Assembly (NCBI RefSeq): GCF_041080865.1
Contig: NZ_CP160906.1
Location: 2,046,001 to 2,110,000, forward strand
Origin: Psychromonas sp. MME1
Lineage (GTDB): Bacteria > Pseudomonadota > Gammaproteobacteria > Enterobacterales > Psychromonadaceae
Direction of reading: 5' to 3'
Length of the DNA: 64,000 nucleotides
Shown: in pieces, positions 1 to 16,928 of the stretch
Position numbering within the stretch: position 1 is the stretch's first letter
How the letters are laid out: each line of letters begins with the position of its first letter
Made by a program: the position numbers and the translations under genes
The notes under the pieces: model-generated
What the model saw: the letters and a program-made list of their open reading frames with translations, nothing else
Databases searched by the model: none
Told to the model about the DNA's origin: nothing

Positions 1-447
1 AATGAGCCCTTAGCGAGATTGAATCATTTACCAAACCACGCCGTTCAGCAATTATCACAGGCGAGCTTTATATTAGTTGAAGATGCCAATGAAGGAGAGC
101 AACTATTTAGTTTAATACGTCACAACGCTCATAAAAATGTCTCTAGCTTGTTTCGTGCAGAAAAAATGCATCTTCCCGATCAAGATACCGCTGAAATATA
201 TACGGGTTTATTAAGTAACTACCCTGAAACTATTTTTGCGTTCAAGGCTTCACAGCAAGCAGCATTTAGTCAACAACTTGCCGCAGTCGCTGATGCCGAA
301 AGTTATGCGAAGTTACTGGATAAATATGGAGTTCGCCGCAGTAGTAAAAACTTCTGGGAGGTGAGCGATACAATTCATCGCTTATATCAACAAGGTGATG
401 CGATTAACTCCGGTTTGTTTGATTATAATCGCTTAGATAATCGCTAA
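1..447 (+). CDS. cti: Fatty acid cis/trans isomerase, C-terminal part (cut by window start)
   Basis: The frame is open from base 1, so the gene begins before the window; about 148 C-terminal residues are seen. The TTG at 19 is only an internal leucine codon. The stretch resembles the end of periplasmic heme-containing Cti enzymes, which convert cis- to trans-unsaturated membrane fatty acids under solvent or temperature stress. Family-like features are the YGVRR segment followed by FW and the closing GLFDYNRL block. The heme-binding motif would lie upstream and cannot be checked. The stop codon overlaps the stop of the convergent arfB by four bases, leaving no room for a separate terminator. 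The family call rests on C-terminal similarity alone. Confidence 0.72.
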   Translation, partial: NEPLARLNHLPNHAVQQLSQASFILVEDANEGEQLFSLIRHNAHKNVSSLFRAEKMHLPDQDTAEIYTGLLSNYPETIFAFKASQQAAFSQQLAAVADAESYAKLLDKYGVRRSSKNFWEVSDTIHRLYQQGDAINSGLFDYNRLDNR

Positions 448-860
448 GCGTCGAAATTTTTCTTACGCATCGCTTTAATTTGTCCGCGCGCTGTTTTTTT
501 ATCCATACGCCGATGCTGAGAACCTCGCGTTGGCTTGGTATCTCGTCGAGCCTTCTGCACAACCACCGCGGCCAAAATTAACGTTTTTAAGCGTTCCAAT
601 GCATCACTACGATTTTTTTCTTGAGTACGATGCTGTTGCGCTTTAATGATAATCACACCATCAGCGGTGATACGCGAATCGGAGTATTTGAGTAAACGTT
701 CTTTATAAAATGGCGGTAATGTAGAAGCGTTTATATCAAAACGAAGGTGAATGGCACTAGAGACCTTATTAACATTCTGCCCACCTGCTCCCTGCGATCT
801 AATTGCGCTCAACTCAATTTGCCAGTCCGCTATCTCCACACCCGCTGTAATTTTTAACAT
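444..860 (-). CDS. arfB: Alternative ribosome-rescue factor B (peptidyl-tRNA hydrolase)
   Basis: The product is 138 residues, the usual ArfB/YaeJ length. It rescues stalled ribosomes lacking a stop codon by hydrolysing peptidyl-tRNA. The GGQ catalytic tripeptide is at residues 26-28 within a release-factor domain-3 fold. The C-terminal tail from about residue 103 is rich in Lys and Arg, as needed for insertion into the mRNA entry channel. It lacks the codon-recognition domains of RF1 and RF2. The start ATG overlaps the stop of the upstream DTW gene (TAATG), so the two are probably co-transcribed and translationally coupled. Confidence 0.93.
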   Translation of the reverse strand: MLKITAGVEIADWQIELSAIRSQGAGGQNVNKVSSAIHLRFDINASTLPPFYKERLLKYSDSRITADGVIIIKAQQHRTQEKNRSDALERLKTLILAAVVVQKARRDTKPTRGSQHRRMDKKTARGQIKAMRKKNFDA

Positions 861-1480
861 TATGAGGCTGTCTCTCTGCTATTTTTATCAAGATAATGTT
901 TTTTATAAGTCCCCTCTGGCATTCTGGATATTTGATAATCAATCATGGCATTAAAACTTTCCAACAAAGGCAAATATTTTTCACTTTCGTTTTCCAATTG
1001 AGAAAGTAAATAGTAACCCGCTTCGACCGTCGATAAACCATCTTCACGCGGTGATTTACGGATACGGTAATGGCTACTCTCTGTCCCTGTTATCGCCACT
1101 TTCGGTAATTTTTGCAAAAAAGGGTTGCTCATTAATAGTTTATAGGCTTTTTTCCAACTACCATCGAGAATAATAAAATGACTGTCAAAATTAATATTGG
1201 CCTGATTTATTAAGCTATCGGCAGGAATTGCCGCCTCATCAGGGAACAATAAATAACTGTTATCAATATCAAATAAACCTTCGTCAAACAAGTTAGCAGT
1301 AGTAATTTCACAGCGCTGTAACGATAACGCTAGTATTTTGGCGGTGCCGATTGCTTTTTTTTCTTCACTCGGATCTTGCAATATGTGCAAAAAGTGTTGA
1401 TTATCAATCATTTTAATCGTTGCACAAATACATGCAGATTGTGCTTTTAAACAACGTTGGCACACGACTCGTTTGGTCAT
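860..1480 (-). CDS. DTW-domain tRNA-uridine aminocarboxypropyltransferase
   Basis: This 206-residue protein belongs to the DTW family, members of which (E. coli TapT/YfiP) transfer the aminocarboxypropyl group of SAM to a tRNA uridine, giving acp3U. The N terminus carries a zinc-type cluster with Cys 7, 10, 17 and 19. The signature motif appears as D-G-S-W at residues 106-109, a serine version of the usual D-x-T-W. A conserved RIRKSPREDGLST-like segment follows and probably contributes to SAM binding. It precedes arfB with a one-base overlap, so both translation-related genes form a small operon. The exact tRNA position modified cannot be read from sequence. Confidence 0.85.
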   Translation of the reverse strand: MTKRVVCQRCLKAQSACICATIKMIDNQHFLHILQDPSEEKKAIGTAKILALSLQRCEITTANLFDEGLFDIDNSYLLFPDEAAIPADSLINQANINFDSHFIILDGSWKKAYKLLMSNPFLQKLPKVAITGTESSHYRIRKSPREDGLSTVEAGYYLLSQLENESEKYLPLLESFNAMIDYQISRMPEGTYKKHYLDKNSRETAS

Positions 1481-1507
1481 AAATTCTCACAGCAATAAAG
1501 GAAACGG

Positions 1508-2098
1508 ATGCGAAATCTTGCTATTGAAACTACGCTCATCATATCAATATCGATATTAGTTTATATATTTGAGCCACAAGCTAGTCAGCTTCTGGCATAT
1601 TATCACAATGCTATTACCCATTTCGAGTATTGGCGATTCATCAGCGCAACTTTCTGCCATACTAATTTCAATCACCTTGGCCTCAATTTAATCGGTTTAC
1701 TTATTACGCTCGGACTTTTTATCGACACCTTTAAAGAAGTTAAGGTATTGCCCCTTCTCCTATTTAATAGCCTATTTATTGGTCTTTGTCTGTTTTTCTT
1801 AGAGCCAACAGTTACAGGGTATGTCGGTTTATCTGGGGTGTTACACGGATTATTTAGTTATGGAGTGATAAGTGATATCAAAAATAAAGATCGCTGGGGG
1901 TATTTATTAGGAACAGGTTTTGTGATTAAAATTTTTTATGAGCAAATTTTTGGTGCGCAACAAAGTACCATTGATTTAATTGCCGCCCCCGTGCTGGTTA
2001 ACGCCCATCTATACGGCGCTATCGCGGGGCTCATTTATTATTTTTTATTGGCAGCCATAAATAGAAAAAGGCAGCCAAAGCTGCCTTTAAATGGGTGA
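1508..2098 (+). CDS. rrtA: Rhombosortase (rhomboid-family serine protease)
   Basis: A 196-residue integral membrane protein with about six hydrophobic segments. The intramembrane catalytic pair is visible: Ser109 in the GLSG motif and His167 in an AHLYG motif. An HTNFNHLGLN segment near residue 51 matches the rhomboid HxxxN region. Rhombosortases process proteins with a C-terminal GlyGly-CTERM anchor before type II secretion; no GlyGly-CTERM substrate is present in this window. The gene is divergent from the DTW gene with 27 bases between start codons. A hairpin terminator overlaps its last codons. Confidence 0.85.
   Translation: MRNLAIETTLIISISILVYIFEPQASQLLAYYHNAITHFEYWRFISATFCHTNFNHLGLNLIGLLITLGLFIDTFKEVKVLPLLLFNSLFIGLCLFFLEPTVTGYVGLSGVLHGLFSYGVISDIKNKDRWGYLLGTGFVIKIFYEQIFGAQQSTIDLIAAPVLVNAHLYGAIAGLIYYFLLAAINRKRQPKLPLNG
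2067..2091. terminator. Bidirectional terminator between rrtA and flagellin
   Basis: A 9-bp stem, AAAGGCAGC with GCTGCCTTT, encloses a CAAA loop. On the minus strand it is followed by TTTTC, a usable terminator for the leftward flagellin transcript. On the plus strand it lies inside the last codons of rrtA, followed only by AAA, so it is weaker in that direction. Confidence 0.7.
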
Positions 2099-2194: not shown

Positions 2195-3868
2195 TTAGCC
2201 CTGTAGCAATGATAATACGTTTTGTGAACTTGCGTTTGCTTGCGATAGCATAGAGGTACCTGCTTGTTGCAAGATTTGCGCTTTACTCATTTTCGATGTT
2301 TCAGCAGCAAAATCGGCATCTTGAATACGCGAATTTGATGCAGATAAGTTTTGTGAAACATTCTCAAGGTTAGAGATAGTAGAGCTCAAACGATTTTGAA
2401 TCGCACCTAAGTTAGCCCGTGAATCGGATATTTTATCTAAAGCAACATCTATTTTATCAAGGCTACTGACCGCATTTTTTGAAGTGGTCACACTTAATCC
2501 TAATTCAGTCACAGAGGTACCACCGACATCGATCATGCCTAATTTATCTAGTGCCGTTGCTTTAGCCGCTTCCGTTGGTGCGTGACTAGCCACAACAATA
2601 TCACCATCATCGGCAGCGGTAAGTAAAATTTCAGTTCCACTTATTGTGGCGATCACGCCCGTTTCTTCAGTTAATTTATTGATGGCATTGACTTGATCTG
2701 CTAATGCTGCGCCCGAAGAAATTAATGGCACACCATTAATCGTAATCGCATCCGCTTCATTAATCGCACCACCCGTAGGAGTTTCACCCAGTACAGCAGA
2801 GCCATTGGTCACCATAAAACCTAAATTTTTCGTCTCTGTAGCGACCCCATTTGTACCTAAATCAACGCCAATAGGTTCTGCATTTTGACTGGTTAAACCT
2901 AAGTAACCTTTAAAGGTCCCGTTTTCTAAGCCAGAAGTAGCACCAGCGCCAGCGATGGTGATAGTTTCACCGCTATCATTATTTAAAATGAGTTGACCAT
3001 CTTCTCCCACTGTTGCTTTTAATCCTTCAACGTCACGATTAATGGTTTCCGCTAAGTTTTCCATGGAAGATGTCGCTGCAAGCGTCACCGCGGTGCCGTT
3101 ACCAATGGTAATCTGCAAACCACTGGTGATCCCTGTTACATTGGTGCCCGATTGTCCTTCAACCACATTATAGGCATCAGCGGTTACCCCTGTAGAAGCG
3201 GTCTCAAGATTAATGACTCGCGCCATTTCAGCAGCGCCACCACCGGCAGCTATTGCACCAATATCAACGCCATTAATAGCAACAGCACCATCCGCCGTTG
3301 CGACACTATCAAGAATTCGACCACCATTGAGATCGCCCTTATTAACTCCGCCATTTAAGCCAAGTTCGGCAGTGGTCACGCTAGCAATACTAAAGGTGAT
3401 ATTTTCACCAGAATTCGCGCCTATTTGCAAAGTGGTTGAGGCATTAGAGCCATCTAATAAATTTGTCCCATTAAATTGGGTGGTTGTGGCGATACGATCT
3501 AATTCGGTATAAAGTTGATCCACCTCTTTTTGAATAGAGGCTTTATTTGATGCAGAGTTAGTGTCATTCGCAGCTTGCACGGAAAGCTCACGCATACGTT
3601 GCAAAATGTTGGTCATCTCATCCATCGACCCCTCGGCGGTTTGCGCCATCGAGATACCATCGTTTGAGTTACGTACCGCTTGGTTAATACCACGAATTTG
3701 TGACTGCATCCCCGTTGAGATAGCTAAACCTGCGGCATCGTCCTTGGCACTGTTGATACGTAAACCAGAAGATAGACGTTCCATCGCTTGGTTTTGGGTA
3801 ATTTGACTTTTGTTTAATTGGCGCTGTGCATTGAGCGACATTATGTTGGTATTGATTATTTGAGCCAT
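2195..3868 (-). CDS. fliC: Flagellin
   Basis: The 557-residue product is the filament subunit. Conserved D0/D1 ends are clear: an N terminus starting AQIINTNIMSLNAQR, a central RLSSGLRINSAKDDAAG-like stretch, and a C-terminal LSASNSRIQDADFA block ending in SLLQG. Residues of roughly 150-460 form a long, variable Ala/Gly/Thr-rich surface region, so the protein is much larger than typical Vibrio flagellins of about 375-390 residues. A strong AAGGAGGA Shine-Dalgarno lies just upstream of the ATG. It is transcribed separately from flgL, which ends with its own terminator, and has a sigma-28-like promoter. Only one flagellin is in the window; other copies may lie elsewhere. The symbol is generic and flaA or flaC would serve equally. 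Confidence 0.95.
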   Translation of the reverse strand: MAQIINTNIMSLNAQRQLNKSQITQNQAMERLSSGLRINSAKDDAAGLAISTGMQSQIRGINQAVRNSNDGISMAQTAEGSMDEMTNILQRMRELSVQAANDTNSASNKASIQKEVDQLYTELDRIATTTQFNGTNLLDGSNASTTLQIGANSGENITFSIASVTTAELGLNGGVNKGDLNGGRILDSVATADGAVAINGVDIGAIAAGGGAAEMARVINLETASTGVTADAYNVVEGQSGTNVTGITSGLQITIGNGTAVTLAATSSMENLAETINRDVEGLKATVGEDGQLILNNDSGETITIAGAGATSGLENGTFKGYLGLTSQNAEPIGVDLGTNGVATETKNLGFMVTNGSAVLGETPTGGAINEADAITINGVPLISSGAALADQVNAINKLTEETGVIATISGTEILLTAADDGDIVVASHAPTEAAKATALDKLGMIDVGGTSVTELGLSVTTSKNAVSSLDKIDVALDKISDSRANLGAIQNRLSSTISNLENVSQNLSASNSRIQDADFAAETSKMSKAQILQQAGTSMLSQANASSQNVLSLLQG

Positions 3869-3917
3869 GGGCTCCTCCTTAATTTCTTTGCAATCCCTTT
3901 GCGGGGGAAATAGGCAA

Positions 3918-3945
3918 TTATTGTTTTAATTGCCGTCAACTTTTA
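3918..3945 (-). promoter_or_regulatory. Candidate sigma-28 promoter of flagellin
   Basis: On the minus strand a TAAAAGTT (3938-3945) is followed after 12 bases by AACAATAA (3918-3925), compared with the consensus TAAAGTTT-N11-GCCGATAA. The -35 is good and the -10 keeps only the CNATAA part. An inverted repeat GGCAATTA/TAATTGCC (3913-3934) overlaps the -10 region and could be a regulatory or 5' RNA structure. Confidence 0.5.
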
Positions 3946-4085
3946 CTCTCCCTCGTAATAAAGCGATTTTCATGCCAAGTTTTCAAAACAAAAGTAATCT
4001 AAATAAAAACAATAACTTACATTAACCCTAATTGATAAATTGAGAAAATGAGAGACTGTTTTTTGACTGATTAAATAAGAAGCAA

Positions 4086-4118
4086 AAAAAAAGAGGCAAT
4101 CAATTGCCTCTTTTTTTG
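4086..4118 (-). terminator. Rho-independent terminator of flgL
   Basis: A stem AAGAGGCAA/TTGCCTCTT with a 4-base loop is flanked by A-rich and T-rich tracts on both sides, so it can work in either direction. It lies directly downstream of the leftward flgL gene and separates the flgJKL unit from flagellin. Confidence 0.88.
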
Positions 4119-4133
4119 TCAATTTATTGTTCT

Positions 4134-5636
4134 TTACAATAATTTAAAAAGACTTAATCCCTGCATTTTCACAAAGGTTTGCTGAGTGATTTCTAATAGG
4201 CTCATCTGTTGTTGAAATTCACTAATAGCAGCAGCCATATCTAAATCTTCTAAATTTGATAATGTTTTTTGACTGCTTAAATTAAAATCAAGTGTCGACT
4301 CGCGCTGATTTTCTATAGTACGTATGCGAGCCCCTACCGCGGTACGAACGTTTGACACTGAACTCATGGTATTGTCAATTTGGTGACGGGCCATATTTAG
4401 CCCCATTTCCCGTTGAGATCTCGCCACACTATCTTCTCCCGGTATTCTTAAGGTATCGATAGCATCTTTGATAGTGGCAAAAATATCCTTTGTGTCACTT
4501 TGACGTAATGTGAAACTATCAAGATTTTCCACCTCCCCCTTTAGCTCGGTTTTAATACCATTAAACTCAATGGATTGGCCTTCTTGATAAGGCGTTGGCT
4601 CAACATATTTATTGATTTTATAGGTATCGGTCAAATCAGGGATACCATCAATCTCAAATGAAAATCCATTCACAGAAACAGTCTGCGCTTCAGTATTTGC
4701 AGGATCAAAGGAAGGAGAAGCAATAACACCACCGATAGAGACATCAATAAGTCCAGCATTTGCAATAAAGCTTATGTCAAGCCCGTTAGATGCTGCAGCA
4801 GGATCAAATTTTGCGGGATCAAAACCAGCAAAACCTGCATTGTTAACATCTACTGACTGCAATGTTATTTTCGCATCACCAGTAACCGTTCCCGCTTTTA
4901 AGCCATACACAGAATAATCGGGATCGGCACCAGGCGTAGCCTCACTAATAGCAATGGTATAATCTTCTTGCAAAAACCCCTTAGAGGCTTTGCTATCAAT
5001 AACAGAAGCGGCATCAATAACACCAGATCCGCCATTAAGCGGATTACCACTGGAGACAAACGTACCATTTCCTTCAGGGATATCGGTAAATATTGTTGAA
5101 CCAGGCGTATTACCTCCAACAAAAACACCAGTGCCCACTTTATAATCACGACTACCGCTATCACCATGGTAATCGATACTAGCAAATTCATTTTCTTGAA
5201 AAGGCTGTGTATCAACCTGAAAACCAGAAAAAATATACTGACTATTACCATCTTTAGAGTTAGCAACACCAATTAATTCATCTCGTAAGTTATCTAATTC
5301 CTGCGCAATTGCCTCACGGTTTTCTTGATTGTAAGTGTCATTACCAGCACTTACCATCAATTCACGAACACGTTGTAGAATATTCGTCACCTGAGAAAGC
5401 GCCGTATCTTCTAATGAATTAGACGTTTCAGCCATCTCACCATTTTTAATATATTGTTCACCAAGAGAAATATCTTGCTTCAAACGTTGAATAGTCGCTA
5501 TCGCAACGGGATCATCAGCCCCCGTAATAACGCGCTTTTGAGTAGATAAATGGAGATTTTGTTGACTCAACTTAGTCTGCTGCGACATCACGCTTTCTGT
5601 ATTACGTTGATAAAACACTTGGGTGGAAATTCGCAT
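4134..5636 (-). CDS. flgL: Flagellar hook-associated protein 3 (hook-filament junction)
   Basis: A 500-residue FlgL, longer than the roughly 400-residue Vibrio homologue because of an expanded central region (about residues 150-370). The N terminus begins MRISTQVFYQR and has the TGADDPVAIA motif shared with flagellins. The C terminus has the AAISEFQQQMSLLEITQQTF coiled segment. It forms the second junction ring between hook and filament with FlgK. It follows flgK by 137 bases, a gap that contains a hairpin and a sigma-54 element, so it can be transcribed independently. Confidence 0.95.
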   Translation of the reverse strand: MRISTQVFYQRNTESVMSQQTKLSQQNLHLSTQKRVITGADDPVAIATIQRLKQDISLGEQYIKNGEMAETSNSLEDTALSQVTNILQRVRELMVSAGNDTYNQENREAIAQELDNLRDELIGVANSKDGNSQYIFSGFQVDTQPFQENEFASIDYHGDSGSRDYKVGTGVFVGGNTPGSTIFTDIPEGNGTFVSSGNPLNGGSGVIDAASVIDSKASKGFLQEDYTIAISEATPGADPDYSVYGLKAGTVTGDAKITLQSVDVNNAGFAGFDPAKFDPAAASNGLDISFIANAGLIDVSIGGVIASPSFDPANTEAQTVSVNGFSFEIDGIPDLTDTYKINKYVEPTPYQEGQSIEFNGIKTELKGEVENLDSFTLRQSDTKDIFATIKDAIDTLRIPGEDSVARSQREMGLNMARHQIDNTMSSVSNVRTAVGARIRTIENQRESTLDFNLSSQKTLSNLEDLDMAAAISEFQQQMSLLEITQQTFVKMQGLSLFKLL

Positions 5637-5688
5637 ATTAGCCTCTTTATTCTATTATGAGCCATTAACTCAACCTAACCAGAATAAA

Positions 5689-5704
5689 TGCAAGAAATAA
5701 GCCA
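5689..5704 (-). promoter_or_regulatory. Sigma-54 (-24/-12) promoter of flgL
   Basis: The minus strand reads TGGCTTATTTCTTGCA, with GG and GC separated by exactly ten bases. It lies about 53 bases before the flgL ATG, leaving a leader of about 42 bases. It is one of five such elements in this flagellar region with identical spacing. Confidence 0.75.
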
Positions 5705-5733
5705 ATATAAAAAACTAAGGCAAGAGAGGTGAA

Positions 5734-5758
5734 CTAGCAATTGCAAAGCTATTGCTAG
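5734..5758. repeat. Small inverted repeat in the flgK-flgL gap
   Basis: Arms CTAGCAAT (5734-5741) and ATTGCTAG (5751-5758) flank a 9-base loop. It lies just after the flgK stop on the leftward transcript. There is no T-run, so it is more likely an RNA-stabilising or attenuating hairpin than a full terminator. Confidence 0.45.
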
Positions 5759-5773
5759 CCGAATCAGAAATGT

Positions 5774-7845
5774 TTAACGGGCAGCTTGTAAAATGGTATC
5801 AAAAAGCTCCCCCGCAACGGATATAACACGCGCAGCGGCACTATAATGCTGTTGATATTGTAATAAATTAGCAGCCTCTTCATCCATATTAACACCGCTG
5901 ATACTCTGCAAACGCTCATAGGATTGGTTTTTTAGTATCGCCGTTGATTGCATCGATATATCGGCATTGGATGTTTTTGCCCCCAATTCCGCTAACATGC
6001 CACTATATACATCTTGAAATGTTGCCTTATTACCATTCATTATTTTTTTGTTCTGTAATTCCCCCATCGCGAGAATATTACGATTATCACCATCGCCCGT
6101 TTCATTGTAGGTCAAGTCAAAGGTATCACCGCTTGCAGGCTGCCCCCTTTCCAATTCAACTTCAATACCAGCAAAATTAAATATCGCCTTTCCTGTGAGT
6201 AAGTCTGGCGTCACCGTCAATCCAGTCAGTACGTCGCCAGGAACTTTAGGGGGCACAAAATTGCCAGTAGAGCCTGTAGGCAAAGTAACGGGAGTGCCAT
6301 TTTTATCGACAATTTCATAGGTTATCACCCCCGCAATATTACTGGTAATACTAATCTGTAATGGGTTATCGGCATCCATATAAAGCGGATCTGCGCTGTT
6401 ATTCAATGCAGAAACACGCATTGTGGCATCTCCGCTGTTCGTCTCACCCGCATTGGCTTTTATCTGTGCATCGGCAGCTGCAACTTTAGCAGGGTTCGTT
6501 TCGACTAAACTCGCCTCCATTGCTGCTAAACGGGTTGGTCTAAGGGTAAATGTTTTGCCTGGTTGGGGGGGATCAGTGGCAATAATAGCATCAATCCCTA
6601 AGCTTAAGCCGCTATTGGGAATATCAATACGCTCTGTGAACTTAGGTCAACGGTTAATATTTGTGACTCGCCCGTTGATGCATTGGTGACTGTAAATTCA
6701 ATCGTACCAGGAGGCGTTGTCGTATCATAGCTATTGACCACTAACCCATATTCATCGGCACTCAATTGGCTAAGATCATCAACACGTAAACTTAATTGCG
6801 CACTGCCCAACCCATCATTATGGGATAAGACACGTTTTTGCATCGTTTCGATGGAATTAATATCATTAAACAGATTATCACCAATCGCACCGTCGAGAGT
6901 CTGCCCTTGCTTTTGCTGCTCATTAATTGAGTGGGTTAAACCAATAATATTTTGTCCTAACTGATTAAAAGCACGTTCAACCACATCGCGACGCGTGGTA
7001 AACATTGCCGCTACCTTGCCGCCTAACCTTTCGCCATCCATTCTCACAAGGCTACCATTGATATTAATAGCAAGCTCTTTACGAGAGGGATCTGGATTAC
7101 CATTGATAGAAACGATATTAAGTGACTCAGCCCCCATCACCAATCCCTGCCCGCTGCCCATGTACACATTAATCATACCGTTATCAGCAGGCACCACTGA
7201 AACATTTACGTATTCACTTAATGCGGTAATGGCTTGATCGCGTTGATCCATTAAGTCATTAGCATTATTACTGCCGCCACTCCCTAAGACAGCTGAGATT
7301 TGTTTATTAATATTCGCCAAATTATCCGCAATGGTGGTAATTGCTTTAGCTGTATTACTAATATCAGTATTAATACTATTATATTGGATATCAATATTTT
7401 CATAGAGACGGTTATATTGGTTTATCATATTAGTCGCTGATTCAAGAAATACTTGTCGAGACTCAAGCATGTTAGGGTGATCAGCAACATTATTAATCGA
7501 CTCAAATGTCGCTAATACCGGTTTTGTAACCGATGTGCCTTCAGTGGAAAGTAACATATCCATCTGACTTGACTGGGCATAAACCTCTTTCGCATAGCCA
7601 AATTGTGATGTATTGATAACATTTTCGTTAAAGGCAAATTTATCATAGGCACGTTCAATACCGTTAACAATCGAACCGCGACCAAGGAAATACTCCCCAT
7701 AACGATCCGCACCAGCCGTCGCGACTTCCACTGATTGCCGAGAATATCCAGGCGTGTTCACATTAGCAATATTATGACCAGTCGTCGCAAGACTCGCTTG
7801 TGATGAATAGATGCCCGATAAACCAATTTGAAATAGATCAGCCAT
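5774..7845 (-). pseudogene. flgK: Flagellar hook-associated protein 1, broken by one frameshift
   Basis: The gene reads as two frames. The first (from ATG at 7845) begins MADLFQIGLSGIYSSQASL and ends prematurely at about 6604; the second is open from about 6640 to 5774. The break lies near 6638-6642: after ..VDLS the downstream frame continues TERIDIPNSGLSLGI, so one missing base in the AGTTC stretch explains it. Restored length is about 690 residues with both typical FlgK termini. FlgK is the first hook-filament junction protein, needed for filament attachment, so a true mutation would abolish filaments. The start overlaps the flgJ stop by eight bases and has a GGAGA ribosome site. The 6520 ATG of the second frame is internal, not a gene start. 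Confidence 0.88.
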
Positions 7846-8842
7846 TAAAATCGTCTCCTGCAATAATCTGTTGGAACTCTTCATTGCGCATGATTTGTTT
7901 TATTTTTTCAGCATATTGAGGATCAGTTGCGTACCCTGCTTGCTGCAACGATTCAATATAATGTTCACTATTAGCGCCTTCTTTTAGCGCCCCTTTATAA
8001 CGTTTATTGTTGACGATAAAATCTTGGTAATCAGCAAAGCTAGCGGCAATATTTTCGTAGGCACGAAAGTCCGAACGACGCTTAATACCAATACCATCTT
8101 CAACTTCTAAGCTATCTTTACTGACTTTATCGCCCTGCCAGCTTTTATTTGCTTTAATATTAAAAAGGTTAAAACTACTTTGATTGGCATCTTTATTAAT
8201 TATTTTTTTCCCCCAGCCCGTTTCCAATGCAGATTGTGCAATTAAAACAGCAGGAGAAACACCTAATGCCTGTGCCACTTTTTTGGCGTATGGCATTAGG
8301 GTATTAATAAAGGATGTTTTGCCGCTAAACTCAGGAGCGTTATTAGCCGAATCTGTTGAAATATTAGCTGATGTCGCTGGCGACTTAACAAATTGCGTAG
8401 CAAAACGAGATTGATCTGGTTTATTAAATTCCTTAATCAACGCCTCTTTTTCTAATGAATGCATTTTATCAAGTTGACTATTAGGCATGTTTAACTGCTC
8501 TATTGGCAGTGATTTTGGCGTAACAATGGAATTCGGATCAAGCTGTCTCACCAAGGCATCTGCAAGGCCGAGTGAACCGTGACGACTGATATCAAGGGCG
8601 AGTTGTTTATCTTGCATGTCTGTATAGAATTTAGTTTGTTTATTATTAAAAGGACTATCTGTTTCAAAGGCTTCATTAGCTTCACGCATTGATTTTATAA
8701 GCATAGTGGCAAACATCGATTCAAATTGATTAGCAACTTCACGAATCGACTCTTTACTATTACCTTGTGCTTTTTGACGCAACTGATCTAACCCTTGTAA
8801 ATCAAAGTAATTACTCGCTTGCGTCACTGCTTGATTAGCCAT
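7838..8842 (-). CDS. flgJ: Flagellar rod cap and peptidoglycan hydrolase
   Basis: A 334-residue dual-domain FlgJ. Residues about 30-100 form the rod-cap domain, with FESMFATMLIKSMREAN. Residues about 175-330 form a glucosaminidase (GH73) domain with the catalytic Glu207 in SALETGWGKK. It assembles the rod in the periplasm and opens the peptidoglycan for it. In Vibrio flgJ directly follows flgI; here a divergent antiporter gene separates them and flgJ has acquired or kept its own sigma-54 promoter. It overlaps the flgK start by eight bases. Confidence 0.95.
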   Translation of the reverse strand: MANQAVTQASNYFDLQGLDQLRQKAQGNSKESIREVANQFESMFATMLIKSMREANEAFETDSPFNNKQTKFYTDMQDKQLALDISRHGSLGLADALVRQLDPNSIVTPKSLPIEQLNMPNSQLDKMHSLEKEALIKEFNKPDQSRFATQFVKSPATSANISTDSANNAPEFSGKTSFINTLMPYAKKVAQALGVSPAVLIAQSALETGWGKKIINKDANQSSFNLFNIKANKSWQGDKVSKDSLEVEDGIGIKRRSDFRAYENIAASFADYQDFIVNNKRYKGALKEGANSEHYIESLQQAGYATDPQYAEKIKQIMRNEEFQQIIAGDDFNG

Positions 8843-8876
8843 TGTCAGCCCCGTTAATTTTCATTTAACTAAACAA

Positions 8877-8892
8877 AGCAAAAAAAGTGCCA
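8877..8892 (-). promoter_or_regulatory. Sigma-54 (-24/-12) promoter of flgJKL
   Basis: The minus strand reads TGGCACTTTTTTTGCT, matching TGGCAC-N5-TTGC with GG-N10-GC spacing. It is about 35 bases before the flgJ ATG, predicting a leader of roughly 24 bases. It lies in the gap shared with the divergent antiporter gene. Confidence 0.8.
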
Positions 8893-8994
8893 AAAATACA
8901 AACCTGTCGTTATTAAAATATCTCTGTTTATTCACTTTTAGCACATGTAATAGTCGCGTAAACTTCACTTTTTTAAAATAACCTTGGACTCACT

Positions 8995-10317
8995 ATGATT
9001 AACCCTGTTTTATTGTCTGTCTCAGTCATGCTTGCCCTCTCTTTAATGAGGGTAAATGTGGTCATCGCCCTCTCATTAAGTGCCATGATAGGGGGGTTAA
9101 GTGCGGGTATGTCATTGACAGACACCGTTGCTGTTTTTGAAGGTGGACTTGGCAGTGGCGCAACCATTGCCCTCAGCTATGCCATGCTCGGTGCATTTGC
9201 CGTGGCAATATCGAAATCAGGCATCACTGATTTACTTTCGCAAACGATTATTAAGCGTATTCACGGCAGACACCCTGATCATCTAACCTATGTCATTAAG
9301 TACATACTACTCAGTGTCATTTTATTGATCTCTATCTCTTCGCAAAATATCATTCCTGTACATATTGCCTTTATCCCAATTTTGATTCCGCCACTACTAG
9401 AAGTGTTTAATAAATTGCGTTTAGATCGTCGCTTAATTGCCTGTATACTGACTTTTGGGTTAGTGACTCCCTATATGGTTCTACCAGTCGGTTTTGGTGG
9501 CATTTTTTTGCATAATATTCTATTAAAAAACTTATATGATAATGGTCTACAGGTAACCGCAGACCAAGTTCCCTATGCGATGATACTTCCCGCATTAGGC
9601 ATGCTGACTGGATTATTGATTGCGGTATTTTTCAGTTACCGTAAACCTCGTGACTACACGCCAACGAATACCCCCATAAAAGCGGAAAAAAAACAGTTAC
9701 AAAAAAGTCATCTGATCGTTGCCGCTGTCGCTATTATCACAACATTAGCGATTCAATTAATGTCTGGCTCAATGATCATCGGCTCTTTAGCTGGCTTTAT
9801 GGTGTTTACCTTAGGTGGCGTTATTGCGTGGAAAGAGACGCAAGATGTATTTACTAAAGGAGTTCATATGATGGCAATGATAGGCTTTATTATGATCACT
9901 GCAGCAGGTTTTGCAGCGGTGATGAAAGCCTCTGGAGGAGTCGAAACATTAGTGCAAATGCTATCAACAAGCATCGGCGACAACAAACCATTAGCCGCGT
10001 TACTAATGCTTATTATTGGCTTATTAGTCACCATGGGAATTGGCTCGTCTTTTTCCACGATTCCAATTATTGCAACTATTTATGTTCCCTTAGCCATCGC
10101 CTTTGGTTTTTCGCCAATGGCCATTATTGCCCTTGTCGGCACAGCAGCTGCACTCGGAGATGCCGGTTCACCCGCCTCTGACTCAACGCTTGGGCCAACT
10201 TCAGGGTTAAATGCTGATAATAATCACGACCATATATGGGACAGTGTTGTACCAACTTTTATTCACTATAATTTACCACTCATTATATTTGGTTGGATTG
10301 CGGCAATGAGCTTATAA
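8995..10317 (+). CDS. NhaC/YuiF-type membrane transporter (putative Na+/H+ antiporter family)
   Basis: A 440-residue polytopic membrane protein with about 11-12 hydrophobic helices and no signal peptide. Its start ([20 protein letters not shown]) and a glycine-rich [21 protein letters not shown] block near residue 385 resemble the NhaC-related YuiF family (COG2056), annotated either as Na+/H+ antiporters or as amino acid, for example histidine, transporters. Substrate cannot be decided from sequence. Its placement is odd: it is the only plus-strand gene inside the otherwise leftward flgB-flagellin block, between flgI and flgJ. A Na+ link to a sodium-driven flagellar motor is tempting but purely speculative. 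Confidence 0.8.
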
Positions 10318-10322
10318 AAAGC

Positions 10323-10357
10323 AAAAAGGGAAAGCGACTAACTGCTTCCCCTTTTTA
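10323..10357. terminator. Bidirectional terminator between antiporter gene and flgI
   Basis: AAAAAGGGAAAGC pairs with GCTTCCCCTTTTT (one mismatch) around an 8-base loop, with A-rich and T-rich flanks. It can end both the rightward transporter transcript and the leftward flgFGHI transcript. Confidence 0.8.
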
Positions 10358-10386
10358 GCAAGTTAACAATGGTTCTTGCTAACTGA

Positions 10387-11487
10387 TTAAATAATAATTA
10401 ACTCGCCCTGTAATGCACCAGCTTGTTTTAATGCCTCTAAAATCGCCATTAAATCACCCGGTGCTAAACCAACTTCATTTACAGCTCGCACTAAATCATT
10501 AAGACTGACGCCTGAATCAAATTTAAACATACGGCTGTTTTCTTGCGTGATATTAATTGTACTATTATCTGTCGTTTCCGTTCTCCCTCCCGCAAAGGGA
10601 TTTGGCTGCGACACCTCTTTATTTTCACTCACGGTAACACTCACTCCACCGTGCGTGATAGCCGCAGGTAATAATTTAACATCTTGGCCAATAACAATGG
10701 TGCCAGTCCGTGAATTAACAATGATCTTTGCCTTAGCACGAGCAGGCTCAACTTCTAAATTTTCTAATGTAGAAAGATAAGAAACTCGCTGAGATTGATC
10801 TCTCGGTGCAAGTACTCTAACTGAAGTCGCATCCAATAAGGTTGCCGTGTTCTGACCAACCAGATTATTAATAACATCGGCCATTCGTTTTGCCGTGGTA
10901 AAATCCGATTGATGTAAATTTAAGGTAATACTATCACCCTGTGAAAAAGAGGATTTTATCTCACGTTCAACAATAGCCCCATTAGAGATCCGCCCTACTG
11001 TTGGCGTGTTAATCACCACTTTTGAACCATCGGCACCTTCAGCACCAAGACCACCAACCACAAGACTCCCCTGGGCAAGCGCATACACATTACCATCAAC
11101 CCCTTTTAAAAAGGTTTGTAACAATTCCCCACCACGTAAACTTTTTGCTTCCCCAATCGCTGAGACAGTAACGTCAATTTTCTGACCCGCTTTAGTAAAA
11201 GGCTTTAATTCCGCCGTGATTGCCACTGGGGCAACATTTTTGATTTTTAAGCTTTCACCCTCAGGAATATTAATACCAAAATTACGCAGCATTGTCGCAA
11301 AGGATTGCTCAGTAAATTTACTGCTTTTTTCACCAGTCCCCGGTAAACCAACCACTAAACCATAACCAACCAACTGATTACTACGAACGCCTTGCACACT
11401 GGTTAAATCTTTAATACGCGCTGCATAACTATTGCCGACTGATGCAATCAACAGGCTAGTAAATAATAATTTTGTTAATAGTTTCAT
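10387..11487 (-). CDS. flgI: Flagellar P-ring protein
   Basis: A 366-residue FlgI, the normal length. A Sec signal peptide (about residues 1-22, ending SYAA) is followed by [20 protein letters not shown], the invariant mature N terminus. The protein forms the P ring around the rod in the peptidoglycan layer. The C terminus ends [10 protein letters not shown]. It follows flgH by 25 bases and is the last gene of the flgFGHI unit here, because the terminator and the inserted transporter gene separate it from flgJ. Confidence 0.97.
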
Positions 11488-11512
11488 ATCTTACCCTTAC
11501 TTGCTAAGTACA

Positions 11513-12184
11513 TTAAATTGGCCAGTATGGGCCATTGAAAAATGCAGTTAACCAGCCCTGTTGTTGAGTATTAGCAAAATCGCCCGTACCACCATACTGA
11601 ATACGTGCATTAGCAACTCGCATCGATGACACTGAATTATCTGAACGAACATCCTCAGAGCGAATAACCCCTTTGATACGAACAAACTCTTCTCCATTAT
11701 TGAGCATCAACCATTTTTCGCCGCGGATCTCAAGGTTACCATTACTCAAAACTCGCGTCACATTGACGGTAATACTCCCCTTTAAGCTATTGCTTTGGTC
11801 GGCATCTGCATCACCTTCGAATTTACTTTTTCCTGAGAGACCAATACTTGCTCCAGAAACTTTTCCAAAATGAGGCAGGTCAGATTCTGCGACCGTTAAA
11901 TCATACCCATTTTTCTTCTCTAGGCTGCTCCCTGCTTTTTTCTTTGCCGTGGTTGCCTCTTCTAAATAGACGGTGATAATGTCACCTATTCGATGTGCTT
12001 TAATATCTGAATAGAGATTATTAGCATAGCTATCTTGAAACAGAGATCCCGTTGCAGCGACGTTATAATCAGCTTCAATCGGCTCAACAGGAACAAACTC
12101 AGGATCATCTTTCGAGGCTTGATTCGGTAACGAAGTACAGCCAGCCAGTACCATTAAGTTTAAACATATTATCAATTTACGCAT
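11513..12184 (-). CDS. flgH: Flagellar L-ring lipoprotein
   Basis: About 223 residues with an N-terminal lipoprotein signal whose lipobox is LAGC (Cys about 16). It forms the outer-membrane L ring. Family motifs seen include LFQDSYANNLYSDIKAHRIGD and the C-terminal GEKWLMLNNGEEFVRIKGVIR region. The start is ambiguous: a GGAGGAT site lies two bases before one ATG (12187) and five bases before the next (12184); the second gives better spacing and a compact signal peptide. The ORF could also open at 12196, which overlaps the flgG stop as TAATG. Confidence 0.95.
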   Translation of the reverse strand: MRKLIICLNLMVLAGCTSLPNQASKDDPEFVPVEPIEADYNVAATGSLFQDSYANNLYSDIKAHRIGDIITVYLEEATTAKKKAGSSLEKKNGYDLTVAESDLPHFGKVSGASIGLSGKSKFEGDADADQSNSLKGSITVNVTRVLSNGNLEIRGEKWLMLNNGEEFVRIKGVIRSEDVRSDNSVSSMRVANARIQYGGTGDFANTQQQGWLTAFFNGPYWPI

Positions 12185-12195
12185 CATATCCTCCA

Positions 12196-12983
12196 TTATA
12201 GCTGTTGACTGACGTAGGATAGCATTTCATCAACTGCTGAAATTACCTTAGAATTCATCTCATAAACACGTTGACTCTCAATCAAATTAACTAACTCTTC
12301 GGTCACATTAACATTAGAGGTTTCTAACATCCCTTGACGTAAAAAACCCATACCATCATTACCGGGCACTCCTTGAAGTGGCGCGCCACTGGCTCCGGTT
12401 TCCGTATATAAATTTTCACCAATCGGCTCAAGGCCAGAAGGGTTAATAAAATCATTAACATTCAACTGCCCCACCACTTGATTCTCTGCTTGCCCAGGAA
12501 TACGTACCGAGACCTCACCCTGAGCACCAACACTAATAGAGAGTGCATTAGCCGGAATTTGTACCTGAGGTAAAAGTGGGTAGCCCGCACCAGGGGTAAC
12601 AATAATGCCATCTTCGTTAAGCTGAAATTGACCATTACGTGTATAACTAGAGCTACCATCTGGCATCTCTATTTCGAAAAAACCGCTACCGTCTATCATA
12701 ATGTCTAAAGAGTTATTGGTTGTGAGCACATTACCCTGTGAAAAATTCTTTTGTACTGCAACGACTTTAGAACCCGCCCCAATCATTAATCCAGAAGGTA
12801 GCTTACTGTTCCAGAAGCGCTGGCGCCTGGCTGATTAATATTTTGATAGAGTAAGTCTTCAAATATGGCGCGACTCTTTTTAAAACCGACAGTGCTGGCA
12901 TTCGCCAAATTATTAGAAATAGTAGCCACATTCGTCTGTTGGGAATCTAATCCAGTTTTACTTATCCATAAAGCGGGATGCAT
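12196..12983 (-). pseudogene. flgG: Flagellar distal rod protein, broken by one frameshift
   Basis: Two frames together encode a complete FlgG. The first 65 residues ([20 protein letters not shown]..) run to a premature TAA, and the second frame resumes with [13 protein letters not shown], which directly follows in the family. The shift is at about 12800-12801: AGC-TA-CCT should read AGC-TTA-CCT, so one T is missing. Restored length is 262 residues, close to E. coli FlgG at 260. FlgG builds the distal rod and is indispensable for flagella. The ATG at 12786 of the second part is an internal methionine. The gene sits between flgF and flgH in the normal order. Confidence 0.92.
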
Positions 12984-13039
12984 AATTTTTCTCCTTAAAT
13001 ACTTTAATAGTGATTGTTTACACTGCGCCGTAGGCTAAG

Positions 13040-13786
13040 TTAAACAACACGTAGTAGAGATTCAGACGCTTTGTCCATCTCTTCCGCTTTTTTCATCATT
13101 TTAATTTGCATCTCAAACTGCCGTTGCAAGTTAATTAAACTGGTTAATTCACTCGCGAGATTCACATTAGATGCTTCAAGTGAACCACTTATCAGCTGCA
13201 CTTGATTACTTTCAATTGGTTCAGCACCGTCTATCCGTCTAAATAGACCATCTTTGCCACGTACAATATCTGCATTATTTGGATTCGCTAATTTAATCTG
13301 CGCGATTTCTTCCATCGCTTCAGCGGGTGCGCCAGATGGAAGAATTTCAACCATACCATCACTGCGGATACTAAATTTTTCTACAGGGAGCGGAATGAAA
13401 ATGGGTCCGCCCTGTATATCAACAACTTGATTACCCTTAGAATCAATTAAATAACCCGTTGGATCAAGATTTAGACCTCCATCACGCGTCATCGCTTGCC
13501 CACCTTGCTGCGATTCAACCACAAGCCAGCCATCCCCTTGAATGGCAACATCAAGCTCACGTCCGGTCATTTGCAACGTCCCCTTGTCAAAATTTTGCCC
13601 TGGCTCTTCGGTAATTGAAAACACCCGCGTAGGCAAGCCTTGACCATAAGCTTGCATACTGCGAGCCTGTTCAAAACTCGCTTTAAAAGCGGTTTTATTG
13701 GCATTTGCTAAATTATTACCATGGATTGCCAAAGCATTCATACTCTCTTTGGCACCTGACATTGAGATATAAAGAAAGTTATCCAT
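13040..13786 (-). CDS. flgF: Flagellar proximal rod protein FlgF
   Basis: A 248-residue rod protein of normal length. The N terminus has the flg_bb_rod motif with GNNLANANKTAFK near residue 24, and the C terminus has the matching SLEASNVNLASELTSLINLQRQ segment. It builds the proximal rod with FlgB and FlgC. It is the first gene of a flgFGHI unit: flgE upstream ends with a terminator, and a sigma-54 element precedes flgF. Confidence 0.96.
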   Translation of the reverse strand: MDNFLYISMSGAKESMNALAIHGNNLANANKTAFKASFEQARSMQAYGQGLPTRVFSITEEPGQNFDKGTLQMTGRELDVAIQGDGWLVVESQQGGQAMTRDGGLNLDPTGYLIDSKGNQVVDIQGGPIFIPLPVEKFSIRSDGMVEILPSGAPAEAMEEIAQIKLANPNNADIVRGKDGLFRRIDGAEPIESNQVQLISGSLEASNVNLASELTSLINLQRQFEMQIKMMKKAEEMDKASESLLRVV

Positions 13787-13847
13787 TTTAATTCCTTAAA
13801 CAAGCACGGGCAGTGCGATTTTTTAATAGAGATTTACAACTAATTAA

Positions 13848-13863
13848 AGCAACATATATGCCA
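13848..13863 (-). promoter_or_regulatory. Sigma-54 (-24/-12) promoter of flgFGHI
   Basis: The minus strand reads TGGCATATATGTTGCT, with TGGC, seven bases, TTGC, and exact GG-N10-GC spacing. It lies about 62 bases upstream of the flgF ATG and downstream of the flgE terminator. Confidence 0.78.
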
Positions 13864-13887
13864 ATATATAAGAAGCAGGTAAGCAAA

Positions 13888-13916
13888 CAAAAAAAACGCA
13901 CCTAAAAAGGTGCGCT
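13888..13916 (-). terminator. Rho-independent terminator of flgE
   Basis: On the minus strand a GCGCACC stem, TTTTT loop and GGTGCG are followed by eight T. It sits 27 bases after the flgE stop and ends the flgBCDE transcript. Confidence 0.88.
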
Positions 13917-13942
13917 TCTGGGGGTAAGTTGCAGTAAATAAA

Positions 13943-15340
13943 TTATCTGATCTGCAGGATTGTCTGTTGTAAGGTATTATTTATTTCTAATGCACGCGAA
14001 TTGGCTTGGAAATTACGCTGTGCAGTGATCAAATCAACCAGCTCTGTCGTTAAATTGACGTTTGATTGCTCTAAAGCTGCCGAATTAATCGCACCAAAGG
14101 AGCCAGAAGCGGCCTCTCCAGCAATTGGATCACCTGAATTTTGTGAAGCGATCCAATTCGATCCCGTTTGTGTCAAACCTTGTTCATTACGAAAACGGAC
14201 AATAGCGACACGTGAGAGAGGTTGAGAAGTACCGTTACTGTAGGTCGCTTTTACTAAACCATCACTACCGATTTCAACACCCGTTAAACGTCCCACGGTT
14301 AAACCATCCTGCTCTAACGCCGTTACCTCAAATGACGACGCAAACTGTGTTGGTTCTCTAAAATTTAAATTAAGCGCTTGACTACCATCGGCACCAGGAG
14401 GCAATACCCCAGCTCCATTCACGCCAAGTGGCTCAAAATCTAAATCTGCAGGATCTGATCCGCTATAGGCACCAGTGTCATCAAAGGTCAATACAATACC
14501 AGTATGGGTAACCCCTGCCGCATCGGTATAAGTAGCCGTTTGCGGCGTACCATCAGGCAAGCCATCACCATCGGCATCGATATCATAGACGCCTGATGTT
14601 TCAGCAGGAGGAACTGCGGATTTATCCCAGGCATCGACCGGAATACCATCAACAGTCATAAAAGTAATCCACTGATTCGTTCCAGTATAGGAAGCATTTT
14701 CAGGTTTAATATAATAGGTACTGGCAATATGTGATTGCCCTAATGAATCATAAATGGTTATCGAAGTGGCATTATTATAAGTAGCAGGATCTTGTGGATC
14801 AAAATTAGCAGGATCAAGAGTCGGATCGCCAGCAGGTAAATTTAAGGTAATACCAAGCTGACTTGTTGATACTGGTGTTCCTGCTGTTTCAGGAATTTGA
14901 ATAGGCTCAGTTGTACTTAAACTTACCGATGAAGAACTACCATCCGAGTTAACAGGAAATGCCTGTAGATAGTTACCACTATTATCGACAATGAAATTCT
15001 CACTATTAAGTTTGAAAGTACCTGCTCGCGTATAACTTAAATCTCTATCTCCTATGTTTCCTGAGGTAGCAAAAAAACCACTACCAGTAATCGCTAAATC
15101 CAATGGATTCTGTGTGAATTTCAAGCTTCCTTGATGAAACTGTTGTGCAACGGCTGCAATAGAAGCACCATCACCTGTTTTAGTTTTGCTATTAGAAAAT
15201 AGTGAATTTGCATAAACACTGTCAAATTCTGCACGAGATTCTTTAAAACCAACGGTACCGACATTGGCAATATTATTTGCCGTTGTATCGAGATCCGTTT
15301 GAGCCGCAGCAATACCACTTAATGCAACATTAAAAGACAT
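13943..15340 (-). CDS. flgE: Flagellar hook protein
   Basis: A 465-residue hook subunit. The N-terminal rod-like motif (LDTTANNIANVGTVGFKESR) starts near residue 16. A variable centre contains a DADGDGLPDG calcium-loop-like segment near residue 250. The C terminus ends in the NFQANSRALEINN..LQQTILQIR block that polymerises in the hook core. It follows flgD by 12 bases and is the last gene of the flgBCDE transcript. Confidence 0.96.
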   Translation of the reverse strand: MSFNVALSGIAAAQTDLDTTANNIANVGTVGFKESRAEFDSVYANSLFSNSKTKTGDGASIAAVAQQFHQGSLKFTQNPLDLAITGSGFFATSGNIGDRDLSYTRAGTFKLNSENFIVDNSGNYLQAFPVNSDGSSSSVSLSTTEPIQIPETAGTPVSTSQLGITLNLPAGDPTLDPANFDPQDPATYNNATSITIYDSLGQSHIASTYYIKPENASYTGTNQWITFMTVDGIPVDAWDKSAVPPAETSGVYDIDADGDGLPDGTPQTATYTDAAGVTHTGIVLTFDDTGAYSGSDPADLDFEPLGVNGAGVLPPGADGSQALNLNFREPTQFASSFEVTALEQDGLTVGRLTGVEIGSDGLVKATYSNGTSQPLSRVAIVRFRNEQGLTQTGSNWIASQNSGDPIAGEAASGSFGAINSAALEQSNVNLTTELVDLITAQRNFQANSRALEINNTLQQTILQIR

Positions 15341-15352
15341 AATTATTCCCTC

Positions 15353-16051
15353 TTATTTATTTTCTGCAACTTCAATTGCATCTGTAAGTTTAATACCACC
15401 TAGGCCTTTAAGATTTAAATTAACCCCAGCAGTGCCGCCACCTAAACTAACACTTTGTACGTGTGCGTATGACGCTGTTGTTAACTCTTCACCTTGCCCA
15501 TTAACAACACCGTTAGCTTTTAAAGTATATTGTCCTTCTGGTGCTCTATTCCCTTGAGAATCTAAGCCATCCCATGAAAAACCTTTATTACCCGCACCAA
15601 TATCACCTAAACTAATAGAGCGAATAATATTCCCTGATGAGTCTTCAACGGTAACCATGACGTTATAAGCACCTGTCGCAGTATTAATTGATCCGGATGC
15701 TCCACCTTCGGTATCCAAGTAAGCTTGATTACTTGGAATGAGTACTTTTTTACCAACTAATGAAGAAGCTTCTAATGCTTGACTAGAACTTAATACCGCT
15801 TTCATTCCCGCAAATTCATTACCCATGGTGGTAATGCCTTCAGCAGTAGTAAATGAAGCCATTTGTGCAATCATTTCTGAGTTATCAACCGGTTTGAAAG
15901 GATCTTGATAAGCCAACTGTTGCGAAAGCAAAGCAAAAAAATCTTCTTGATTAAGTTGCTGTTGTGCATCGACCGCTTTATTCGCAGCAACTTGTTCAGG
16001 CGTTAACGGAACGTTTAAATTTAATGAGCTGTAATTATTAATTGATGCCAT
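15353..16051 (-). CDS. flgD: Flagellar hook cap / assembly scaffold
   Basis: A 232-residue FlgD. Residues about 36-75 carry the typical DFFALLSQQLAYQDPFKPVDN segment, and the C-terminal half has the FlgD Ig-like/tudor fold with GFSWDGLDSQGNRAPEGQY. It caps the growing hook and is released when the hook is complete. It is positioned between flgC and flgE with gaps of about 10 bases, consistent with one operon. Confidence 0.96.
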   Translation of the reverse strand: MASINNYSSLNLNVPLTPEQVAANKAVDAQQQLNQEDFFALLSQQLAYQDPFKPVDNSEMIAQMASFTTAEGITTMGNEFAGMKAVLSSSQALEASSLVGKKVLIPSNQAYLDTEGGASGSINTATGAYNVMVTVEDSSGNIIRSISLGDIGAGNKGFSWDGLDSQGNRAPEGQYTLKANGVVNGQGEELTTASYAHVQSVSLGGGTAGVNLNLKGLGGIKLTDAIEVAENK

Positions 16052-16061
16052 AGATTACCCC

Positions 16062-16481
16062 TTAACTTTTGCCCATTTGTAATGTGCGACTTAACATCTG
16101 TTTGGCTGCATCGGCAATTTGAACATTAGTTTGATAGGAACGAGAAGCACTAATCATATTCGCCATCTCCTCCATGACATTAACGTTGGAATGATAGATA
16201 AACCCATCTTGATCAGCTTTAGGATGATTCGGAGCGTATTCCGTTTGCAAAGGCGCATCACTCTCAATAATGCCTTGTACTTTAACGCCAACACTACTAC
16301 TTAAACCACTATTAGCGCGGTTTAATTCTGCGGCAAAAATTGGCTGACGTGAGCGATATGTTTCATCTCTATTGCTGCTAACGCTATTAGCATTAGCTAA
16401 ATTACTTGCGGTTGTATTCAAACGTACAGATTGCGCACTCATACCTGTTGCGGATACATCTAATACTCTTAATAAACTCAT
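16062..16481 (-). CDS. flgC: Flagellar proximal rod protein FlgC
   Basis: A 139-residue rod component of normal length. The N-terminal motif SVRLNTTASNLANANSV and the C-terminal NVNVMEEMANMISASRSYQTN segment are the paired rod-family helices. Operon partner of flgB (21 bases upstream) and flgD. Confidence 0.96.
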   Translation of the reverse strand: MSLLRVLDVSATGMSAQSVRLNTTASNLANANSVSSNRDETYRSRQPIFAAELNRANSGLSSSVGVKVQGIIESDAPLQTEYAPNHPKADQDGFIYHSNVNVMEEMANMISASRSYQTNVQIADAAKQMLSRTLQMGKS

Positions 16482-16502
16482 AGTGATACTCCTAACAAGC
16501 TG

Positions 16503-16904: not shown

Positions 16905-16928
16905 AAATTTCTCCTCTCTACGAACAAA

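Follow-up and report, generated by a model that had tools for sequence, protein, structure and literature searches.

What is a transporter gene doing in the middle of a flagellar gene cluster, and by which route did it get there? In the standard polar cluster of Vibrio the genes follow the order flgBCDEFGHIJKL, with flgI and flgJ adjacent. The 64,000-nucleotide stretch of the Psychromonas sp. MME1 genome analysed here (contig NZ_CP160906.1, positions 2,046,001 to 2,110,000; hereafter the window) has its flg genes in the order flgBCDEFGHIJKL too and, as a preliminary description of the locus had pointed out, a transporter gene in reverse orientation separates flgI from flgJ. The explanation we favour, with a probability of roughly two in three, is that a transporter gene of the Vibrionaceae type was acquired early in Psychromonas, that the native copy was lost, and that the newcomer lodged at an operon boundary.

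The interval between flgI and flgJ corresponds exactly to positions 8843-10386 of the window. The transporter gene (8995..10317, plus strand) encodes a YuiF-type protein of 440 amino acids labelled "Na+/H+ antiporter family", identified through the list of open reading frames (ORFs), Pfam and NCBIfam models and alignment. The two genes at its sides, both on the minus strand according to their ORF coordinates and recognized by Pfam, are flgI (10387..11487), for the P-ring protein, and flgJ (7838..8842), whose product carries rod-binding and glucosaminidase domains. The transporter is thus flanked by a convergent gap of 69 nt towards flgI and a divergent gap of 152 nt towards flgJ; no further ORF of at least 80 amino acids is present in either gap, and neither an integrase nor an insertion sequence was found beside the gene. 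On the minus strand there also lie flgK (5774..7884), whose ORF overlaps flgJ, and flgL (4134..5636), the latter identified from the ORF list and homologues in relatives, while ArfB-like, DTW and rhomboid genes (444..2098), recognized by neighbourhood comparison with relatives, mark the cluster edge. In a genome-wide search at E <= 0.001, the transporter was the sole match in MME1.

Several reading frames of the window are interrupted. A frameshift near 6616-6634 divides flgK into two ORFs, flgG (12196-12983) is likewise frameshifted, with a break near 12810-12822, and transketolase (27504-29493) is represented by two ORFs that overlap. With a housekeeping gene affected as well, sequencing error is the likely cause; flgK and flgG are both intact in a relative, G021.

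The age of the arrangement can be judged from a survey of 24 Psychromonas genomes, a genus that stands alone in its family in our genome sample. The transporter is present in 22 of them and a polar-type flgI in 21, and 19 of these 21 carry flgI, transporter and flgJ on one contig, P. ossibalaenae, P. marina and P. hadalis being among the named carriers. In these 19 genomes the transporter is separated by 59-380 nt from flgI and by 145-261 nt from flgJ. In the order sample of 247 genomes, there were 115 non-Psychromonas genomes with flgI and flgJ both among the matches listed, close together and on the same contig, and the gap between the two matches was 4-882 nt, never gene-sized. Four genomes of family f3 were omitted from this count: in G136, G221 and G248 flgI and flgJ are split between contigs, and in G230 a distance of 131 kb separates them. 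The transporter carriers include none of these genomes. Among the genomes surveyed, the arrangement was found only in Psychromonas, and within the genus it is an old, fixed trait. The preliminary description spoke of an inserted gene, which holds relative to other genera, but the insertion is not a recent one; an event confined to the MME1 strain is ruled out by the genus survey.

Two genomes with polar-type flgI depart from the rule. In G021, a genome 51% complete, flgI and flgJ are 183 nt apart and no transporter was found; in G020, assembled in about 500 contigs, the two genes lie on different contigs and no transporter was found either. In the tree of flg genes, G021 branches first in clade A (support 1.0), and G020 first in clade B, though weakly (0.3). 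Because G021 is firmly inside clade A, a single gain requires at least one loss, and given one gain the best reading of G021 is a loss; for G020, either a loss or a branching before the gain is possible. These positions, as well as the UFBoot of only 56 that unites the Psychromonas copies in the transporter tree, are what could be expected if the gene had been inserted independently at the same junction in both clades, with the empty sites of G020 and G021 as the ancestral state. However, the two clades agree in site and orientation and resemble each other in upstream block and terminator, all of which makes a double insertion very improbable. The flagellar cluster of G020 seems, for its part, to be rearranged, because a repeat that includes TTTACGTCACATGGTATATACC occurs twice before flgJ (L161, C322) and flgI is followed on its other contig (L127, C197) by unrelated ORFs; this genome also yields two rnt matches.

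Outside Psychromonas the transporter occupies another place. The usual order is motY, rnt, transporter, grxD and sodB, with motY and grxD in the direction opposite to the other three. Among the 80 non-Psychromonas loci, mostly from Vibrionaceae, for which at least 5 kb is available on either side, rnt lies within 5 kb of the transporter in 61, motY in 52, and grxD and sodB in 46 each; for each of MotY (NF047620), RNase T, Grx4 and SodB, NCBIfam confirmed the identity of one example. At one such locus (L031) only 25 nt separate the end of rnt from the transporter, so the two may be co-read. In Psychromonas this site is empty: the transporter is absent from all 24 rnt loci inspected (23 genomes, 2.4-3.6 kb each), where motY is still divergent upstream in 20 of the 24 and grxD downstream in 15. 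In MME1 itself, other genes follow rnt. In four clade A genomes (L228, L230, L231, L232), an ORF of 128-143 amino acids fills the place of the missing transporter between rnt and grxD.

An empty old site and an occupied new one could result from a transfer between families or from a move within the genome, and the phylogeny of the gene bears on this choice. The Psychromonas transporter is 75.4% identical to that of Vibrionaceae (family f21) and 68.0% to those of both f12 and f2. Conversely, for the four genes of the old site the closest family is f12, with 67.5% for RNase T, 88.0% for GrxD, 82.3% for SodB and 55.3% for MotY, against 63.6, 82.5, 76.6 and 43.6%, respectively, for Vibrionaceae. 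Species relationships were judged from these flanking genes, the flg genes and HemB; Psychromonas flgI is also closest to f12, HemB leaves the families unseparated (78-81% for f2, f12 and f21), and in the flg tree the grouping of Psychromonas with f12 has a support of only 0.33.

The transporter tree comprises 68 sequences: the window's, 21 from other Psychromonas, 20 from the order sample and 26 of the 71 named non-Psychromonas loci. With support counted by bipartition, Psychromonas groups with Vibrionaceae, two stray copies included, at UFBoot 85, whereas the flanking-gene tree joins Psychromonas to f12 at 97. In AU tests on the transporter, a grouping of Psychromonas with f12, f2 and f25 is rejected (p 2e-4), and so is one with f12 (p 1e-42; p 6e-5 with the other taxon set). 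In turn, the four flanking genes combined reject Psychromonas plus Vibrionaceae against f12 plus f2 (p 0.004). The first AU set contained 38 of the 68 sequences (8 Psychromonas, 15 Vibrionaceae, 9 from f2, f12 and f25, and 6 others). Among those left out are L186 and L187, Vibrionaceae copies on long branches that the 68-sequence tree groups with Psychromonas (UFBoot 70). The second set comprised 37 transporters, and the flanking genes were taken from 26 loci: 9 of 14 Psychromonas donor regions, 3 from f2, 2 of 3 from f12 and 12 from Vibrionaceae. The Psychromonas regions omitted were four without grxD beside rnt, plus L224; in the alignment, GrxD and SodB are missing from two loci and MotY from two.

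Monophyly of the Vibrionaceae copies without Psychromonas is allowed for the transporter (AU p 0.42), so that the tree alone gives no direction of transfer. It is the location of the copies, at the ancestral site in Vibrionaceae and at a new one in Psychromonas, that leads us to infer that Vibrionaceae were the donor side. Hidden paralogy behind the transporter tree is possible. Four f25 genomes (G047, G104, G119, G246) have two or three copies each, 55-63% identical to the window's, which suggests paralogues with different substrates. Furthermore, a genome of family f7 (G138, L188) carries a Vibrio-type copy, 73% identical and nested in Vibrio (UFBoot 96), in an unrelated neighbourhood; the transporter carriers of the order sample include just one further f7 genome. 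This copy likely represents a second transfer, and its nesting indicates that the Vibrionaceae-type version does move.

Under a simple relocation, the native rnt-linked copy would have moved to the flgI-flgJ junction inside the genome, with no exchange between families. The single copy in the MME1 genome would fit such a move, as would the genus-wide pairing of an empty ancestral place with a filled new one. Nevertheless, the transporter tree rejects a grouping with f12, f2 and f25 as well as one with f12, the genes at rnt-grxD side with f12, and the gene of Vibrionaceae type reached at least one other family; we consider a relocation rather unlikely. Acquisition from Vibrionaceae ancestry early in the genus, with the gene lodging reversed between flgI and flgJ and the native copy at rnt-grxD being lost, would better accommodate both trees.

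How the flagellar genes accommodate their guest depends on the signals at the two ends. In the flgI/transporter gap, hairpin scan, folding and alignment locate a bidirectional intrinsic terminator (10322..10357). Read toward flgJ, the 69-nt gap folds with -28.9 kcal/mol (z -6.6; none of 200 shuffles as good) and, in the opposite reading, with -21.3 kcal/mol (z -3.4; 2 of 200). As the gap folds well on both strands and the hairpin is flanked by A- and T-runs on both sides, the label "bidirectional", already used in the preliminary description, is fair. A terminator-like stem was detected by the hairpin scan in 18 of the 19 convergent gaps of Psychromonas; in the one missed, that of G004, a stem is visible by eye, and the stem of G011 is poor in T.

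On the other side, a sigma-54-type promoter site (8877..8892, minus strand; TGGCAC-N5-TTGCT, TGGCACTTTTTTTGCT) lies 50 nt upstream of flgJ, in agreement with the initial observation. It was located by pattern search, shuffles and conservation: the exact pattern occurs twice in the window, where shuffles predict 0.27 matches (3 of 100 shuffles reach two), and both occurrences share the strand of the flagellar genes and lie upstream of one, flgJ or flgF. The strict pattern precedes flgJ by 49-67 nt in 20 of the 21 Psychromonas genomes, namely the 19 with the insertion and G020. G021, with no transporter at the site, has TGGCGCACATTTTGCA at -51, a sigma-54 site with one mismatch, along with a terminator hairpin. 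In that genome, then, an operon boundary with a promoter exists without the transporter. In G014 (L155), an inverted repeat, AAATGCCACTTATTT...AAATAAGTGGCATTTTTTTT, followed by a T-run overlaps the sigma-54 site of flgJ, and G022 (L163) is similar, so that promoter and terminator-like hairpin coincide there.

flgJ and flgK overlap in the window and in two further Psychromonas genomes, and therefore flgJKL probably form one unit. Elsewhere, the sigma-54 site stands before flgK in G066, the one Vibrionaceae genome checked, and, with one mismatch, in three f12 genomes; three f2 genomes have a weaker site, at a distance of 178-198 nt from flgJ on its upstream side. It thus seems that in Psychromonas the boundary has shifted from flgJ/flgK to flgI/flgJ. 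This boundary need not be older than the insertion, as f12, the family closest by flgI identity, has no flgI/flgJ boundary (gap of 8-10 nt in 3 genomes); in 11 genomes of the Moritella-like family f2, the flgI-flgJ spacing is estimated at 279-361 nt. As to the timing, f12 points to a change on the Psychromonas branch and f2 to an older one. The preliminary description had made the promoter the remedy that let flgJKL survive the split; promoter and terminator need not be a response to the split, given that G021 and f2 have a flgI/flgJ boundary without the transporter.

Upstream of the transporter start, a TCACGTAGAATGC-like block (8953..8967, plus strand), noticed by eye in an alignment of Psychromonas sequences, precedes most copies in the genus, with a variant form in G005, G013 and G015. 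Judging from its sequence, it is the probable -10 region of a sigma-70-type promoter belonging to the transporter itself. No sigma-54 site with up to one mismatch was found near the gene on its own strand, the plus-strand matches in the window being only at 24744 and 41152. The unit ending with flgI would consequently stop at a terminator serving both directions, flgJKL would start at the sigma-54 promoter, and the transporter would be read from its own housekeeping-type promoter. Placed between two transcription units and with a promoter of its own, it should cost the flagellar genes little and be independent of them.

With regard to function, the preliminary description had proposed an antiporter of the NhaC/YuiF type. 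The likeness to YuiF is confirmed, but "antiporter" is a probable misnomer, as the protein is homologous to a histidine transporter and scores 20.4 bits with the NCBIfam equivalog model for NhaC (TIGR00931), against a cut-off of 370. Pfam recognizes PF13726 at residues 3-89 (108 bits) and PF03553 at residues 152-434 (258 bits), a pair also present in homologues from Staphylococcus aureus and Priestia. To the S. aureus protein, 215 of 440 residues are identical (49%), end to end with 2 gaps; to that of Priestia, 249 of 438 aligned positions (57%). The Priestia gene follows a leucyl aminopeptidase gene, and the S. aureus gene has a leucyl aminopeptidase gene before it, a PaaI-type thioesterase gene after it and genes for mnh-type antiporter subunits near. 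By these neighbours, the S. aureus gene is recognized as SAUSA300_0846, for which PMC10817146 mentions a thioesterase partner. This gene is there annotated both as an NhaC-type antiporter and as a YuiF-type histidine permease, and its mutant is described as having almost abolished uptake of radiolabelled histidine, restored by complementation (PMC10817146). In addition, YuiF is placed in HisR regulons of Bacillales (PMC9413887).

The predicted structure, of moderate quality (pLDDT 70.6), resembles solute transporters of the IT superfamily: Foldseek gave 37 matches at E <= 0.001, including NaS1, INDY, Pho90, TRAP-M, AbgT-type proteins and MleN. The fold of NapA-type antiporters was not recovered in this search, NapA appearing at rank 48 with a probability of 0.20, and phmmer found no match among PDB sequences at E <= 1. 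At gathering threshold, Rfam detected no RNA element in positions 1-20000 of the window and only tRNAs at six transporter loci, and thus offers no riboswitch hint to the substrate. Neither a link to histidine genes nor, by eye, a substrate hint from the neighbours of the transporter in distant families was seen. Altogether, a histidine permease is the best-supported function, one that we propose with reasonable though not high confidence, and histidine import is more probable for this protein than sodium antiport. Histidine would most likely be imported by an ion-coupled mechanism of the elevator type; the specificity is extrapolated over 49% identity, and coupling to Na+ is a guess.

Could the gene nonetheless serve the flagellum? 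The preliminary description had left room for a relation with a Na+-driven motor, and one may picture a true Na+/H+ antiporter kept near the motor genes and setting the sodium gradient on which the polar motor runs. The Pfam family names do say antiporter, and the gene has had two flagellar neighbourhoods, the old one near motY (52 of 80 loci) and the new one inside the flg cluster. Against this stand the failure of the NhaC model, the lack of a sigma-54 site near the gene on its own strand, and the fact that the nearest characterised relative found imports histidine. Moreover, the gene outlives the motor genes. Three Psychromonas genomes, G005, G013 and G015, have no polar-type flgI, G013 and G015 being without any flgI match and G005, which we take to be P. 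ingrahamii 37, having only a 49%-identical one that we take for the lateral type. Cultures of P. ingrahamii 37 are reported as non-motile (PMC2405808). All three keep the transporter, and motY was not found in the 17-18 kb regions around their rnt.

In G005 and G013, both without polar-type flgI and flgJ, the transporter adjoins the rhomboid, DTW and ArfB-like genes of the cluster edge, and a terminator-like hairpin is visible downstream. The relative order and orientation of rhomboid and transporter genes match those of the window, with one extra ORF between them in G013, so that the flg genes seem to have been removed around the transporter. In G015 the neighbours differ from those in G005 and G013. 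Across the order sample (thresholds 1e-100 and 1e-60, a flgI match meaning E <= 1e-60), 125 of the 247 genomes have both transporter and flgI, 25 the transporter only, 59 flgI only and 38 neither; the 25 among 150 carriers include G013 and G015, and 18 of them belong to family f9. This survival after the loss of polar-type flgI and motY, together with the carriers devoid of flgI, makes dependence on the polar motor unlikely. A motor-serving antiporter appears highly doubtful, and the transporter is probably an unrelated lodger of the flagellar cluster. Still more speculative is the thought that the two flagellar neighbourhoods are no coincidence, a Na+-coupled permease being favoured near Na+-motor genes, perhaps sharing a local sodium circuit with them, and its acquisition having pushed the boundary from flgJ/flgK to flgI/flgJ; we give it very little credence.

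What emerges is probably a xenologous permease at an operon boundary, a well-conserved but rather ordinary oddity; among the literature matches listed, no title reports a transporter within flgI-flgJ. It corrects a likely wrong "Na+/H+ antiporter" label in a marine genus, and illustrates how a foreign gene can lodge at a transcription boundary of a conserved flagellar cluster without breaking it. Likewise, the Psychromonas genomes devoid of polar flg genes act as natural knock-outs, in which motY and the flg genes to either side are gone and the transporter stays, which settles much of the question about a motor link that the preliminary description had left open. The displacement of the sigma-54 boundary, from flgK to flgJ, amounts to a modest regulatory change that lends itself to testing.

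Compared with known systems, the locus combines familiar parts in an unusual way. The polar flagellar cluster of Vibrio and that of Psychromonas have the same gene order, flgBCDEFGHIJKL, but the sigma-54 site stands before flgK in the Vibrio-type cluster and before flgJ in Psychromonas, where flgJ and flgK overlap. NhaC proper bears PF03553, and this domain, in the C-terminal half, is what the NhaC antiporters described by TIGR00931 have in common with the Psychromonas protein, which differs from them by its additional N-terminal PF13726. With the YuiF/SAUSA300_0846 histidine permease, in contrast, it shares the entire PF13726 plus PF03553 architecture, colinear over 440 amino acids at 49% identity; the difference lies in the setting, the Psychromonas gene residing in a flagellar cluster with no link to histidine genes seen.
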